A stretch of 64,000 bases of DNA from Allosaccharopolyspora coralli (GTDB taxonomy: Bacteria; Actinomycetota; Actinomycetes; Mycobacteriales; Pseudonocardiaceae), in the NCBI RefSeq assembly GCF_009664835.1, contig NZ_CP045929.1, positions 3,348,001 through 3,412,000 of the forward strand. Reading direction: 5' to 3'. Below, piece after piece: positions 37,894-57,910 of the stretch. A program made the position numbers and the translations under genes. Position 1 is the stretch's first letter, and each line of letters starts with the position of its first letter. The notes under the pieces were generated by a model. The model saw nothing but the letters and a program-made list of their open reading frames with translations, did not search any database and was not told where the DNA came from.

Positions 37894-38529
37894 GTTCGCC
37901 TCTCGTCGTCTCGGGGAGGCCGGTCACTTCCCGTCGGGGGGCGGGTGGTCCCTCTTCGGGGCGAGGAACCTCGTGACCGAACCGTGACGTTTCAGCGAAG
38001 AACGTAGCTAAGAGTTATCGGAGCGGCAAGCCTTCACCCAACAGGTGCAGGTTGATCGTGTGGCATCACTCTCTTTGAACACTTTATGTAACACTCGAAG
38101 ATGACCATCGGGTAACGCGCCCACCCTGCCCGACGCCGCGCACACCGATCCGTCGTCCACCGATCACGCCGGCGGTCCACCCGGGACACGCCGCGCACCC
38201 CTGCCCGCGACCACGAGGTCATTTCGGCTGGTATGCCGACGACGCGATCCCGGAGCCCGAACCACCACACGAACGGGGGACACTCATGCCTCTGACCTCG
38301 CATGATCAGCGCTGGTGACCACGATGGACAGTACGAAGATCGCCCCAGAGTCGACACACGCGTGCGACACGCGCCACGAAACGGCCGCACAGTGACGTCG
38401 GACACAGTTTCCGGAGATGATCGTCGCCGCGGGTCACACCCCTCGCGTGTGCGTACACAGACCTGCATCGACACCTCCCGGAGCGTGGGACAACTGTCGC
38501 GTCGGTGGCACGTCTGTTTGACTGTCGCC
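37894..38529. other. Intergenic region between M23 gene and leader peptide
   Basis: About 640 bases without a convincing gene. The first 200 bases would be the 5' leader and promoter of the M23 gene; AACACT occurs twice 12 bases apart (38078-38083 and 38090-38095) in its most AT-rich part, resembling tandem half-sites of an OmpR-type regulator. Toward 38500 the sequence should contain the promoter for the sulfur-linked leader peptide. No known riboswitch could be recognised with confidence. Confidence 0.4.
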
Positions 38530-38622
38530 ATGACCCAAGGCGATCCAGGACTGCTGCTCGTTCAGCGCCTGCACGTGGACCTGCTCCGGGTCGTCTCCAC
38601 CGGGTGTCTCACGGAGCGCTGA
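38530..38622 (+). CDS. Leader peptide of the cysteine-attenuator type
   Basis: A 30-codon ORF (MTQGDPGLLLVQ then RLHVDLLRVVSTGCLTER) that carries the motif R-x-HVDL-x-RV-x-S-x-x-C. The same motif is found in the short leader peptides that precede sulfate, sulfite and cysteine genes in many actinobacteria, where ribosome movement over the cysteine codons regulates downstream expression. It lies 93 bases before the TauE/SafE exporter, with a GC-rich inverted repeat (GCCGGCG/CCGCCGGC near 38675) between them that could form the attenuator. A TTGACT box six bases before the ATG suggests a leaderless transcript, but this is weak. Confidence 0.75.
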   Translation: MTQGDPGLLLVQRLHVDLLRVVSTGCLTER

Positions 38623-38715
38623 CCAGCACCCGAGCCGTCAGCTCCTGCTCCAGTTCCCTCGACGCTCACCGCCGGCGCCGCCGGCAGAGACCTCACGCCT
38701 CTTTGGAGACACCAC

Positions 38716-39618
38716 GTGCAAGCGTTCATCATCTTCGCCATCGGCGGGTTCATCGCCCAGCTGGTGGATGGCTCGCTCGGCATGGCCTACGGGGTCACGT
38801 CGACGACCATTCTGCTGACGGCGGGCCTCACCCCGGCGGCCGCCTCGGCCTCGGTCCACCTCGCCGAGATCGGTACCTCCGTGGCCTCCGGCCTCTCGCA
38901 CTGGCGCTTCGGCAACGTCGATTGGAAGATGGCGCTGGCTCTCGGCATCCCCGGCGCGATCGGCGCCTTCCTCGGCGCCACCGCGCTGAGTAATCTCTCC
39001 ACCGCGGCCGCCGCGCCGTGGATGGCCACGATCCTGGTCGTCATCGGCGCCTACGTGCTGTTCCGGTTCGCGTTCCGGCCGGTCCGGCGGCGACAGCTCA
39101 CCGGAGTCAGTCCGAAGTTCGTCGCGCCGCTGGGCTTCATCGCCGGGTTCATCGACTCCACCGGAGGCGGCGGCTGGGGACCGGTGTCCACGCCGACGCT
39201 GCTCAGCACCGGCAAGATCGAACCGCGCAAGGTCGTCGGCTCCGTCGACACCAGCGAGTTCTTCGTCGCGATCGCCGCGAGTTTCGGGTTCCTCTTCGCG
39301 CTCGGCAGCTCCGGCCTGTCCTGGATCACGGTGGCGGGGCTGCTGCTCGGCGGCGTCATCGCGGCACCGCTGGCTGCCTACCTGGTGCGGATCGTGCCGA
39401 TGCGACTCATCGGCGTCGGAGCGGGCGGGCTCATCGTGCTCACCAACAGCCGCACCCTCGTCAACGCCTTCGACCTCTCGTTCCCGCCGCCGGTCGTGCT
39501 CTACGGCGTTCTCACGGTCACCTGGCTCGCCGCGCTGGCCTGGACCGTCTACAACGTGGTGCTGGAGCGTCGCACCGAGGCGGTCGAAGAGAAAGCCGAG
39601 GAACCGGTCGTCAGCTGA
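38716..39618 (+). CDS. TauE/SafE-family sulfite/anion exporter
   Basis: A 300-residue membrane protein with about eight helices and two repeats of the TauE/SafE fold (GGFIAQLVDGSLGMAYG and GFIAGFIDSTGGGGWGP, each with the conserved Gly/Asp loop). The family exports sulfite, sulfoacetate or related organosulfur anions, or imports sulfate-like ions. GTG start at 38716 follows GGAG. The upstream leader peptide argues that this copy is controlled by sulfur or cysteine supply. The next gene in the region with a sulfur link is the UDP-sulfoquinovose synthase at 41656. Confidence 0.87.
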   Translation: MQAFIIFAIGGFIAQLVDGSLGMAYGVTSTTILLTAGLTPAAASASVHLAEIGTSVASGLSHWRFGNVDWKMALALGIPGAIGAFLGATALSNLSTAAAAPWMATILVVIGAYVLFRFAFRPVRRRQLTGVSPKFVAPLGFIAGFIDSTGGGGWGPVSTPTLLSTGKIEPRKVVGSVDTSEFFVAIAASFGFLFALGSSGLSWITVAGLLLGGVIAAPLAAYLVRIVPMRLIGVGAGGLIVLTNSRTLVNAFDLSFPPPVVLYGVLTVTWLAALAWTVYNVVLERRTEAVEEKAEEPVVS

Positions 39619-39899: not shown

Positions 39900-40787
39900 T
39901 TATGCGGCCTCGGGTATCTCTTGCTGTTCCCATTGTTCGGGGCTGGCATAGCCCAGGGTGGAGTGCAGTCGTCTGCGGTTGTACCAGGTCTGGATCCAGA
40001 CGAAGATGGCCTGGCGTGCCTGGGCTCGGGTGGTGAAGCGGTGTCGGTGCACGAGTTCTCGTTTCAGGGCCCCGAAAAACGACTCCACGATGGCGTTGTC
40101 CCAGCATATCCCGGTGCGCCCGAGTGAACGCCGAATGCCCAGTTCGCGGCAGTGTTGGGCGAACTGAGCACTGGTGTACTGACATCCGCGGTCGCTATGG
40201 AAGATCACCCCGGCGACGTTGCCACCGCGAGTGGCTACCGCGTTGTCCAGGCAGTCTGCGACGAGGTCGGTGCGCAGGTAGCTGGCCATGGCATAGCCCA
40301 GTACCCGGCGTGAGCCGACATCGAGGACGGCGGCCAGGTACAACCAGCCCTCGTCGGTGGGGATGTAGGTGATGTCGCTAGCCCAGCGCTGGTCTGGCAG
40401 GCCGGGCATGAAGTCCCTACCGAGCAGGTCCGGGGCGGGTTCCGGTTGGTCCGCGGGAACTGTGGTGCGTACCCGCTTGCGCGGGTGCACACCGACGAGG
40501 TCGTGAGCCCGCATCAACCGCTCCACGCGCTTGTGGTTGACTACCCAGCCCCGGTGGCGCAGCTCGGCATGCACTCGGGGTGAGCCGTAGGTGCCACCGG
40601 AGGCTTCGTGCACCGAGTGGAGCTCGGTGACCAGGTCGTCCTCGGCCTGCTGGGCCGGGCTCGGTTCACTGGCCTGGGCTCGTCGCCAGTCGTAGTAGGC
40701 CGAGGTCGAGACCCCGGCGGCGTGGCAGGCGGCCGCTACCGTGAAGCCGTCGGCCTTCTGGGAGTCAACGAAGCGGTAGCGGGTCAC
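39900..40787 (-). CDS. IS3-family transposase OrfB (integrase core)
   Basis: A 295-residue transposase with a helix-turn-helix-like N-terminal part (TYGSPRVHAELRHRG) and the DDE core: WASDITYIPTDEGW, IFHSDRGCQYTS and NAIVESFFGALKRE, ending YNRRRLHSTLGYASP. It is a different IS3 member from the one at 14993 (only family-level similarity). GTG start at 40787 overlaps the orfA stop (GTGA). The frame is intact. Confidence 0.93.
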   Translation of the reverse strand: MTRYRFVDSQKADGFTVAAACHAAGVSTSAYYDWRRAQASEPSPAQQAEDDLVTELHSVHEASGGTYGSPRVHAELRHRGWVVNHKRVERLMRAHDLVGVHPRKRVRTTVPADQPEPAPDLLGRDFMPGLPDQRWASDITYIPTDEGWLYLAAVLDVGSRRVLGYAMASYLRTDLVADCLDNAVATRGGNVAGVIFHSDRGCQYTSAQFAQHCRELGIRRSLGRTGICWDNAIVESFFGALKRELVHRHRFTTRAQARQAIFVWIQTWYNRRRLHSTLGYASPEQWEQQEIPEAA

Positions 40788-41086
40788 TCTGTCGACTCCC
40801 TCACCCAGAAGGCCGTGGCTCGTTTGAGCAGGTCACGCTCCATACGGAGCTTCGCGTTCTCCTGCTCCAGCTCGGCCAGCCGCGTGCGCTCTGAGGTGCT
40901 CAAGCCCTCTTGCTGGCCCCGGTCGATGCGGGCCTGCTTGACCCAGTTACCCAGGGTCGAGTCATAGATCCCCAGATCCCGGGCGGCCTCGGCCACCGAC
41001 TTGCCGCCGGTCAGCACCAGCTCGACGGCATCCCGCTTGAACTCCGCCGAGAACTTCCGACGGGTTCGTCGTTGCCCTTCGGTCAC
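40784..41086 (-). CDS. IS3-family transposase OrfA (HTH)
   Basis: A 100-residue DNA-binding subunit with helix-turn-helix SVAEAARDLGIYDSTLGNWV and a zipper-like helix RLAELEQENAKLRMERDLL. The GTG at 41086 is preferred since GGAGAG lies eight bases upstream; a TTG at 41101 would add five residues. Confidence 0.9.
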   Translation of the reverse strand: MTEGQRRTRRKFSAEFKRDAVELVLTGGKSVAEAARDLGIYDSTLGNWVKQARIDRGQQEGLSTSERTRLAELEQENAKLRMERDLLKRATAFWVRESTE

Positions 41087-41221
41087 GCGGACACTCTCCA
41101 ATCAACTCGAGTGTCCGGTCCACCGGGGGAAGCTCACCCCAACGCCGCGAGGCGCGAACTGGGGCGGCGGTACCCGACCACCTACCTCAGTTCCACAACG
41201 CGATCTGACACCGACACGGTA

Positions 41222-41254
41222 GGTGCCCCGGGTGCTACCAGCGCCCGGGGCACC
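41222..41254. terminator. GC-rich hairpin
   Basis: An 11-bp perfect stem (GGTGCCCCGGG and complement, loop of 11) downstream of the MITE-like element, in a 450-base stretch without genes. It could have been the original terminator of the TauE gene. Confidence 0.5.
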
Positions 41255-41325
41255 GCTCCCCGTACCGTGACCCCGCCCGGGCACAGCGCCCGCCGGCAGG
41301 ACCGCCCAGTCTGCCAAGGCACGGT

Positions 41326-41354
41326 GGCATATTCCATACAGTTCGGCATATTCC
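41326..41354. repeat. Direct repeat GGCATATTCC, two copies
   Basis: GGCATATTCC at 41326-41335 and 41345-41354, 19 bases apart, in the only AT-rich patch of the region 41197-41440. No gene starts next to it, so its role is unclear. Confidence 0.4.
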
Positions 41355-41382
41355 CACCCGTCCGGCCCCACGGACGAGAAAC

Positions 41383-41655: not shown

Positions 41656-42825
41656 TCAGTCGCCCGTCCGCATCGGGCTGGACGCCTCACGCCACTTCAC
41701 CGTCGGACGCATCGCGGCGTCGTCGACACGGTGCTTGAAGCTCTCCGCCACCCCGAACAGCGACTCGATGAGCGTGTTCGACAGCAAGTGCGGCTCCAGA
41801 CCCAGCTCGACCAGACCGGTGTGCACCACGTTGTAGTAGTGCTCGGACTGCTCGACACGCGGGTTGTCGAGGTGCTCCACGGTGACCGAACCGTCGTAGC
41901 TGTTCGCCACGACCTTCGCGATCTCCTCGACGGAGAAGCTCTCGGTCATCTGGTTGAACACCCGGAACTCACCGCGCTCGGCCGGGTTCTCCGACGCCAG
42001 ACGGATGCACTCGACCGTGTCGCGGATGTCGATGATGCCGCGAGTCTGCGTGCCGGATCCGTACACGGTCAGCGGGTGCCCGAGCACCGCCTGGATGACG
42101 AACCGGTTCAGCACGGTGCCGAAGATCGCGTCGTAGTCGAACCGCGTCGCCAGCCGCGGGTCGCGTTTGGTCTGCGGTGTCTCCTGGCCGTAGACCACGC
42201 CCTGATTGAGGTCCGTGGCCCGCAGGCCCCAGATGCGGCAGCCGAACTCGATGTTGTGGCTGTCGTGCACCTTGCTGAGGTGGTAAAAGGAGCCCGGCTT
42301 CTTCGGGAAGAGCATCCGGTCCTTGCGGCCCTTGTGCTCGACCTCCAGCCAGCCTTCTTCGATGTCGATGTTCGGCGTGCCGTACTCGCCCATCGTGCCC
42401 AGCTTGACCAGGTGGATCTCCGGATCGATCTCCTGAATCGCGAACATCACGTTGAGGTTGCCCACCACGTTGTTCTGCTGGGTGTACACGGCATGCTTGC
42501 GGTCGATCATGGAGTACGGCGCGGCACGTTGCTCGGCGAAGTGCACGATGGTGTCCGGACGGAAGTCGCGGACCATCGCGTAGGTGAACTCGGCGTCGAC
42601 GAGATCACCGTAGTACGAGGTGATCGTCTTACCCGAGACTTCGCGCCACGCATCGACGCGGACCTGAAGCGGTTCGATCGGAACCAGACTCTGTACGCCC
42701 ATCTCGTGGTCGTAGGCCCGCCGAGCCATGTTGTCGGCGACTGCGACGTCGTGACCGCAGTCGGACAGATGCAGAGCGGTCGGCCAACCGAGGTAGCCGT
42801 CCCCCCCGAGGACGAGGATTCGCAC
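41656..42825 (-). CDS. sqdB: UDP-sulfoquinovose synthase (SqdB/SQD1-like)
   Basis: A 389-residue extended short-chain dehydrogenase, strongly like plant SQD1 and bacterial SqdB, which convert UDP-glucose plus sulfite to UDP-sulfoquinovose. The nucleotide site is LVLGGDGYLGWPTALHLS; family-specific blocks are HFAEQRAAPYSMIDR, GTMGEYGTPNIDIEEG (catalytic Thr), SFYHLSKVHDSHN (Tyr-Lys pair) and RATDLNQGVVYG. GTG at 42825 is preferred: AAGGGAG lies eight bases upstream and homologues start at the same MRILVLGGDGYLGW; an ATG at 42846 has no ribosome site. The TauE exporter and the sugar-transfer genes nearby suggest a sulfosugar for lipid or glycan. Confidence 0.92.
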   Translation of the reverse strand: MRILVLGGDGYLGWPTALHLSDCGHDVAVADNMARRAYDHEMGVQSLVPIEPLQVRVDAWREVSGKTITSYYGDLVDAEFTYAMVRDFRPDTIVHFAEQRAAPYSMIDRKHAVYTQQNNVVGNLNVMFAIQEIDPEIHLVKLGTMGEYGTPNIDIEEGWLEVEHKGRKDRMLFPKKPGSFYHLSKVHDSHNIEFGCRIWGLRATDLNQGVVYGQETPQTKRDPRLATRFDYDAIFGTVLNRFVIQAVLGHPLTVYGSGTQTRGIIDIRDTVECIRLASENPAERGEFRVFNQMTESFSVEEIAKVVANSYDGSVTVEHLDNPRVEQSEHYYNVVHTGLVELGLEPHLLSNTLIESLFGVAESFKHRVDDAAMRPTVKWREASSPMRTGD

Positions 42826-43184
42826 GCCTTGTTCTCCCTTGTTCATGGGCGGCACCGCCGGCACCGGAGCAGCCCCGAGGCTTTCCGAGGTACCGGGACA
42901 CCCGGCACGATAAGCAGTGCTCTGTTCGAGCACGGTGAAGGTACGCCTCTTCTACCACCACCGGGTCGAGATGACCACGAGCATGCTCTCATCCCATACC
43001 CGCACGACGAAGCATTGTGTGGGCAATGGTTGCCCAGCGCTGTCCGACACGCCAGCGATGTCCCGATTGGCCAGCGCACGTCCCATGCGGACGGCCACGG
43101 ATCGGGGGGCGGCGGACGAGGCGACGCTCGTGGCGCTCGGTATCGTTCGATCCGAACAGGTGACACCCACCGGAAGGGACCGGA
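42826..43184. promoter_or_regulatory. Divergent promoter region with palindrome
   Basis: The 359 bases between divergent sqdB and gtrA hold no gene. TGGGCAA - TGG - TTGCCCA (43020-43036) is a perfect 7-bp inverted repeat with a 3-base gap near the middle and is a candidate operator that could control both directions. Confidence 0.45.
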
Positions 43185-57602: not shown

Positions 57603-57710
57603 CCGTGACGGCCGCGTGGATCACGCTGCCCTCCGGTTGACTCCGTACCCAGCGCTTCCGTAGCGTCATCGGCCGAGCCAACGACAACAGAACACCGCGC
57701 CCACGACGTC

Positions 57711-57910
57711 GAGCGGGAGAGACCCCACCCGGTGTGCCTCGCACCCGGACCGGGGCGCCGAAGGAGCAATCCTCCCTCCAAACTCTCAGGCCACAGACAC
57801 CGCTCGGTACCAGGCGAACGGAGAAAAGCAGGAGCGCCCGCTCCTCGCCCACGGTGCAAGCCGCCTCGCGCGGTGAAACTCTCAGGCCAATGACTCCGGG
57901 GAGACGGTCT
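57711..57910 (+). ncRNA. Tandem glycine riboswitch
   Basis: Two glycine aptamers in a row before gcvT. The first has GCGGGAGAGACC (57713 on), GGCGCCGAAGGAGCAA and AACTCTCAGGCC (57781-57792). The second has GGAGAAAAGCAGGAGC, GGTGCAAGCC and AAACTCTCAGGCCAATGAC (57877-57895). These are the conserved strings of the gcvT riboswitch class. When glycine is plentiful it should turn on the cleavage gene. The region 57603-58027 holds no protein gene. Confidence 0.93.

Follow-up and report, generated by a model that had tools for sequence, protein, structure and literature searches.

A conserved leader peptide with a single UGU cysteine codon as a likely cysteine-responsive control element of a TauE/SafE-family permease gene

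The window, a contiguous stretch of 64,000 nucleotides, carries on its forward strand a short open reading frame (38530..38622, ATG to TGA, 30 amino acids, MTQGDPGLLLVQRLHVDLLRVVSTGCLTER) in front of safE, which encodes a TauE/SafE-family permease of 300 amino acids (38716..39618, forward strand). Judged from its sequence, this ORF is a real leader and almost surely a regulatory one. It belongs, though unlisted, to a known kind of leader and stands before a gene class whose function is uncertain. The reading that we favour, and hold to be fairly probable, is that it encodes a cis-acting RxHVDLxRVxSxxC leader peptide, which would control safE through cysteine-dependent stalling and release of the Shine-Dalgarno (SD) sequence. 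The DNA backs this reading with a conserved ORF, a fixed Arg-Cys spacing, a UGU bias, a sulfur-gene context and, in the window clade, complementarity to the SD; stalling, cysteine as the signal, the polarity of the response and the direction of transport we infer.

Exactly 93 nt lie between the leader stop and the safE GTG (38716), and the coordinates and spacing given in the first-pass annotation, a 30-codon leader ORF 93 bases 5' of a TauE/SafE gene, were thus reproduced. When the whole genome, a single 4.83 Mb contig, was searched with a profile built from 17 leaders, the window peptide itself among them, the ORF was matched at E=1.5e-16. The same search revealed related leaders before genes for sulfite reductase, a TauD-type dioxygenase, cysteine dioxygenase and DUF4395 plus sulfurtransferase, the gene names being a reading of the translations. 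This profile match and the sulfur-linked leaders of the same genome bear out the earlier assignment to the actinobacterial R-x-HVDL-x-RV-x-S-x-x-C leader type. Seven relatives have such leaders before several of the same gene kinds and before other kinds as well, and the C-terminal motif recurs before many different sulfur genes, close upstream each time. Against NF042934 (cis_reg_atten) the window peptide scored 21.0 bits, under the 27-bit cut-off, which we counted against the main reading; two of its orthologues scored above the cut-off with 28.6 and 30.9 bits, and the window peptide is classed as an orthologue of NF042934 members, its own score falling short of membership. An Rfam scan gave no match at the leader.

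SafE homologues were drawn from 249 genomes of the family, in which Saccharopolyspora are the nearest named relatives of the source genome. In each of the 22 relatives whose SafE is 68-78% identical (23/23 loci with the window), the leader lies in frame before safE at a distance of 38-211 nt; its consensus is MTxGDQWxLLVQRLHVDLLRVTSAGCRxxR. The first-pass annotation had asked for conservation of motif and frame in relatives, and frame, peptide and spacing are indeed kept in each of these 22. The leader is also present in three loci with about 59% SafE identity (Actinomycetospora group), and HVDL leaders stand 5' of safE in Geodermatophilaceae, Actinomycetospora, Prauserella, Gordonia and others too, conservation being looser across Actinobacteria. 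At the 80 nearest SafE loci of a phylum-wide sample of named genomes, the HVDL pattern was counted 30 times and a second pattern, FWPS, six times, the pattern being a loose one that gave at least two false matches and missed one leader. About half of these 80 loci (e.g. in Micromonospora) are without either pattern, which was counted against the main reading. A short VPHCRPSR ORF 5' of Micromonospora SafE was taken as promoter or operator DNA and dropped as a leader. One locus has a tandem pair of SafE homologues with a separate HVDL leader for each.

Three residues, R(-13), D(-9) and C(0), were the same in each of the 51 distinct leaders that precede SafE homologues; H(-11) and L(-8) were kept in 50/51, and R(-6) and V(-5) were nearly invariant. 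The conserved residues are encoded by several synonymous codons each, with zero indels in the 51 sequences; residues thus stay constant as synonymous codons vary, so that it is the peptide that is under selection. The leader N-terminus varies freely between clades. In the window the RLHVDL codons occupy 38566..38583 (forward strand), positions -13 to -8 relative to the sole Cys codon, a UGU at 38605..38607 (forward strand) that is the putative regulatory codon and lies exactly 13 codons 3' of the invariant Arg. The window peptide, with its one Cys codon, has no Cys run, nor does the leader consensus.

UGU, the rare synonym, is the codon at position 0 in 43/51 SafE leaders; in the long ORFs at these loci it makes up 59/670 Cys codons (9%). 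In HVDL-type (type 1) leaders the position-0 Cys codon was UGU in 61/76 cases, as against UGC in 33/34 of the Cys codons elsewhere in these ORFs. Fisher tests for UGU at the regulatory position gave 2e-15 for type 1 and 4e-9 for the second type (type 2, FWPSR), p-values that overstate the independent evidence because the sequences are related. Codon choice also differs by gene: the six sulfite-reductase leaders use UGC, the sulfurtransferase and dioxygenase leaders UGU. Elsewhere in the same genome (C1:4095359-4095400), 5' of a dicarboxylate/cystine-type symporter, a leader-like ORF without Cys, ERLHVDLRRQASSV, ends in a TGA that stands exactly at the Cys position, directly after RLHVDLRRQASSV.

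In Pseudonocardia, SafE is preceded by an unrelated ORF, LExFWPSRRxxAFDExCR, the type 2 leader. Its FWPSR pattern was found in 9/9 Pseudonocardia genomes with 14 matches, a reversed control pattern giving 0, and these leaders precede SafE, NMT1-type ABC binding proteins (PF13379) and a PF03601-like (YeiH-type) gene, the last assignment being sub-threshold. In the phylum sample 12/396 genomes had an FWPSR leader: in genus g47, taken from the sequences as Mycobacterium, it stands in front of SafE, and in genus g53, likewise taken as Streptomyces, in front of a winged-helix regulator. FWPSRR spans positions -13 to -8 relative to a Cys codon that is UGU in 28/28 cases, the same geometry as in type 1. 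No NCBIfam model matched the FWPSR leader, and a text search of the papers available to us found neither the string FWPSR nor RLHVDL. FWPSR...FD..C thus appears to be an undescribed leader peptide family, placed ahead of TauE/SafE and further transport genes of sulfur type in Pseudonocardia and related genera; it is this second family and the single-UGU geometry that are new here, the HVDL leader kind itself being known.

The SD core GGAG (38705-38708) lies 5' of the safE GTG, in an SD region, GGAGACACC (38705..38713, forward strand), that was predicted to be 84% paired to the leader ORF. A putative anti-SD segment of the leader, GGTGTCTC (38603..38610, forward strand), spans the Cys codon and is the exact complement of GAGACACC at 38706-38713. 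The duplex of leader 3' end and SD was better than in synonymous shuffles (p=0.002; p=0.027 with other segment limits). Saccharopolyspora and some Actinomycetospora achieve leader-SD pairing with different sequences (CCTCCG/CGGAG; CCTCGG/CCGAGG), and cognate leader-SD combinations pair better than non-cognate ones (permutation p=0.007). No excess over synonymous shuffles was found in Prauserella, most Geodermatophilaceae and the type 2 leaders. We discarded SD sequestration as a mechanism common to all clades, significance being limited to some of them; for the window clade the modelled sequestration is supported. The combined p for type 1 leaders, only 0.036, and the small modelled opening of the SD upon stalling in the window, from 0.16 to 0.26, were both counted against the main reading. 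A scan between 38622 and 38716 found no intrinsic terminator, which favours translational control.

Upstream of the leader, a conserved palindrome, TCCCGGAGCGTGGGA (38476..38490, no strand assigned), is a possible operator. A similar palindrome-like site stands 39-42 nt 5' of the leader ATG in 23/23 close loci, most commonly as TCCCGCACTCTGGGA. Six exact sites of the palindrome pattern occur in the genome, one before a MoeZ/ThiF-like gene, with no consistent regulon among them. Nearer the start codon, a putative -10-like hexamer TTGACT (38518..38523, forward strand) lies 6 nt 5' of the ATG, and TT[CG]ACT is found 6-7 nt 5' of it in 23/23 close loci. A sigma-70 consensus scan upstream of the leader found no promoter, which was counted against the main reading. 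Because hexamer and palindrome keep near-fixed distances from the ATG, they suggest that the leader transcript is leaderless and under a regulator.

According to the mechanism we propose, the RNA would start at or near the leader ATG and translation would be immediate. With plentiful Cys-tRNA the ribosome would pass the single UGU and reach the stop, after which the leader 3' codons (including GGUGUCUC) would pair with the safE SD and safE expression would be low. With charged tRNA-Cys scarce, the ribosome would halt at UGU, aided by the conserved RLHVDL lying 8-13 residues deep in the exit tunnel; it would then mask the anti-SD and leave the SD free, so that safE could be translated and SafE could transport a sulfur oxyanion (sulfate or sulfite). 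The leader would probably induce the transporter at times of cysteine shortage. M. smegmatis cysteine leaders are reported as translation attenuators, in the wording of papers that cite them (PMC13236596, PMC9031893).

How far the peptide itself takes part is a matter of rival readings. Tentatively, both leader families, RxHVDLxRVxSxxC and LExFWPSR[RQ]xxxFDxxC, could be nascent-chain-assisted cysteine sensors, in which the -13 to -8 hexapeptide would prime a pause at one UGU and so replace a run of regulatory codons; the identity of the Cys codon may then set sensitivity gene by gene. A classical codon-counting attenuator, with the Cys codon alone of importance, RLHVDL an inherited by-product and the nascent chain passive, seems unlikely to us. 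Stalling at codons for the sensed amino acid is well documented (PMC8079986, PMC13236596), and the use of a rare Cys codon for control is in keeping with such an attenuator. Against it, R, H, D, L, R, V and S have stayed (nearly) unchanged in many genera while their codons vary synonymously and indels are absent, a constraint that codon counting alone does not need, and positions -13 to -8 are also where the unrelated second peptide is conserved. We give little credence to an action of the peptide on transcription, by Rho or by terminator read-through coupled to leader translation, in place of translation initiation. Some clades retain the leader and miss the SD pairing, as such an action would allow; the lack of an intrinsic terminator between leader and safE and the cognate SD complementarity of the window clade speak against it. 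We hold it very improbable that the product is a small protein with a function of its own and not a regulator: although the peptide is conserved, in close relatives including its N-terminal MTxGDQW, the N-terminus is free to vary between clades, and one and the same C-terminal motif stands close before many different sulfur genes.

The permease matches PF01925 (TSUP) over 236 residues with 130.1 bits (gathering cut-off 32.6). Convergent with safE lies a gene for UDP-sulfoquinovose synthase (sqdB/SQD1, 41656..42846, reverse strand), the start of which was picked by eye, the longest ORF starting at 42933. Its product matched NF041015 with 466 bits, under the cut-off of 575, and PDB 1i24 (plant SQD1) at E=3.7e-157. 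UDP-sulfoquinovose synthase uses sulfite. The synthase gene adjoins safE convergently in 17 relatives, where the IS3-family element with two ORFs (39900..41101, reverse strand, NF033516) that separates safE and sqdB in the window, outside the switch, is missing. Where safE and sqdB converge, relatives have a strongly conserved element of about 90-150 nt between the two 3' ends, consisting, in order, of TACCCACGTGYCGTATCGC, a hairpin with the invariant loop GAAGCCCCCCGA and a terminator-like hairpin; it is possibly a small RNA, and in the window the IS3 region interrupts it near 41200-41370. Rfam gave nothing above cut-off for this element, and the true 6C RNA of those genomes has its place elsewhere. 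The window also contains a glycine riboswitch at 57704-57812 (54.7 bits).

The first-pass annotation regarded SafE as an exporter of a cysteine- or sulfite-linked anion. The sulfur-anion part of this guess gains from the sqdB synteny in the 17 relatives; export is unproven, and the exporter label is not established, since sulfate importers are known in the TauE family: uptake by one such protein was shown through complementation (PMC11535334), and C. glutamicum CysZ falls within the superfamily of TauE (PMC5840216). Export of excess sulfite, with the leader inducing at high cysteine or merely tuning, is a serious but weaker candidate. A TauE of Streptomyces coelicolor was proposed as a sulfite exporter (PMC7533328), this leader also stands before a catabolic gene, that for cysteine dioxygenase, and the convergent synthase handles sulfite. 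Set against this, besides the known importers, no CysT permease was found above the curated cut-off in the genome, although one SulP is present, and leaders before sulfite reductase suggest induction by starvation. Since a cysteine-starvation logic favours uptake over export, SafE more likely moves a sulfur oxyanion (sulfate or sulfite) inward than outward.

Altogether, these results would bring TauE/SafE permeases into the cysteine-leader regulon. What these proteins carry, and in which direction, is for the most part guesswork, and the link to a leader gives a handle on their physiology. The Arg-Cys spacing, the UGU-only bias and a second family of the same geometry turn a question of peptide conservation into one of ribosome stalling. 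In the arrest peptides SecM and TnaC, conserved residues stand at a fixed distance before the pause codon. The window leader is like them in this respect, and arrest by it is our proposal. NF042934 ("putative leader peptide") has the same motif and position as the window leader and accepts its orthologues above cut-off, and differs in that the window peptide reaches 21.0 bits versus 27; NF042936 (leader_Ms4527A) gives it 23.2 bits, below the cut-off of 45. Related candidate leaders are found in PMC4633059. With the mycobacterial poly-cysteine leaderless uORFs, as these are described in papers citing Canestrari et al. 2020, the window leader shares that it is short, has Cys near its 3' end and precedes a sulfur gene; it is probably leaderless as well. 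Unlike them it has one UGU Cys codon instead of a Cys run, and the downstream gene is a TSUP permease, whereas in the poly-Cys uORF system it is a cysteine biosynthesis operon.
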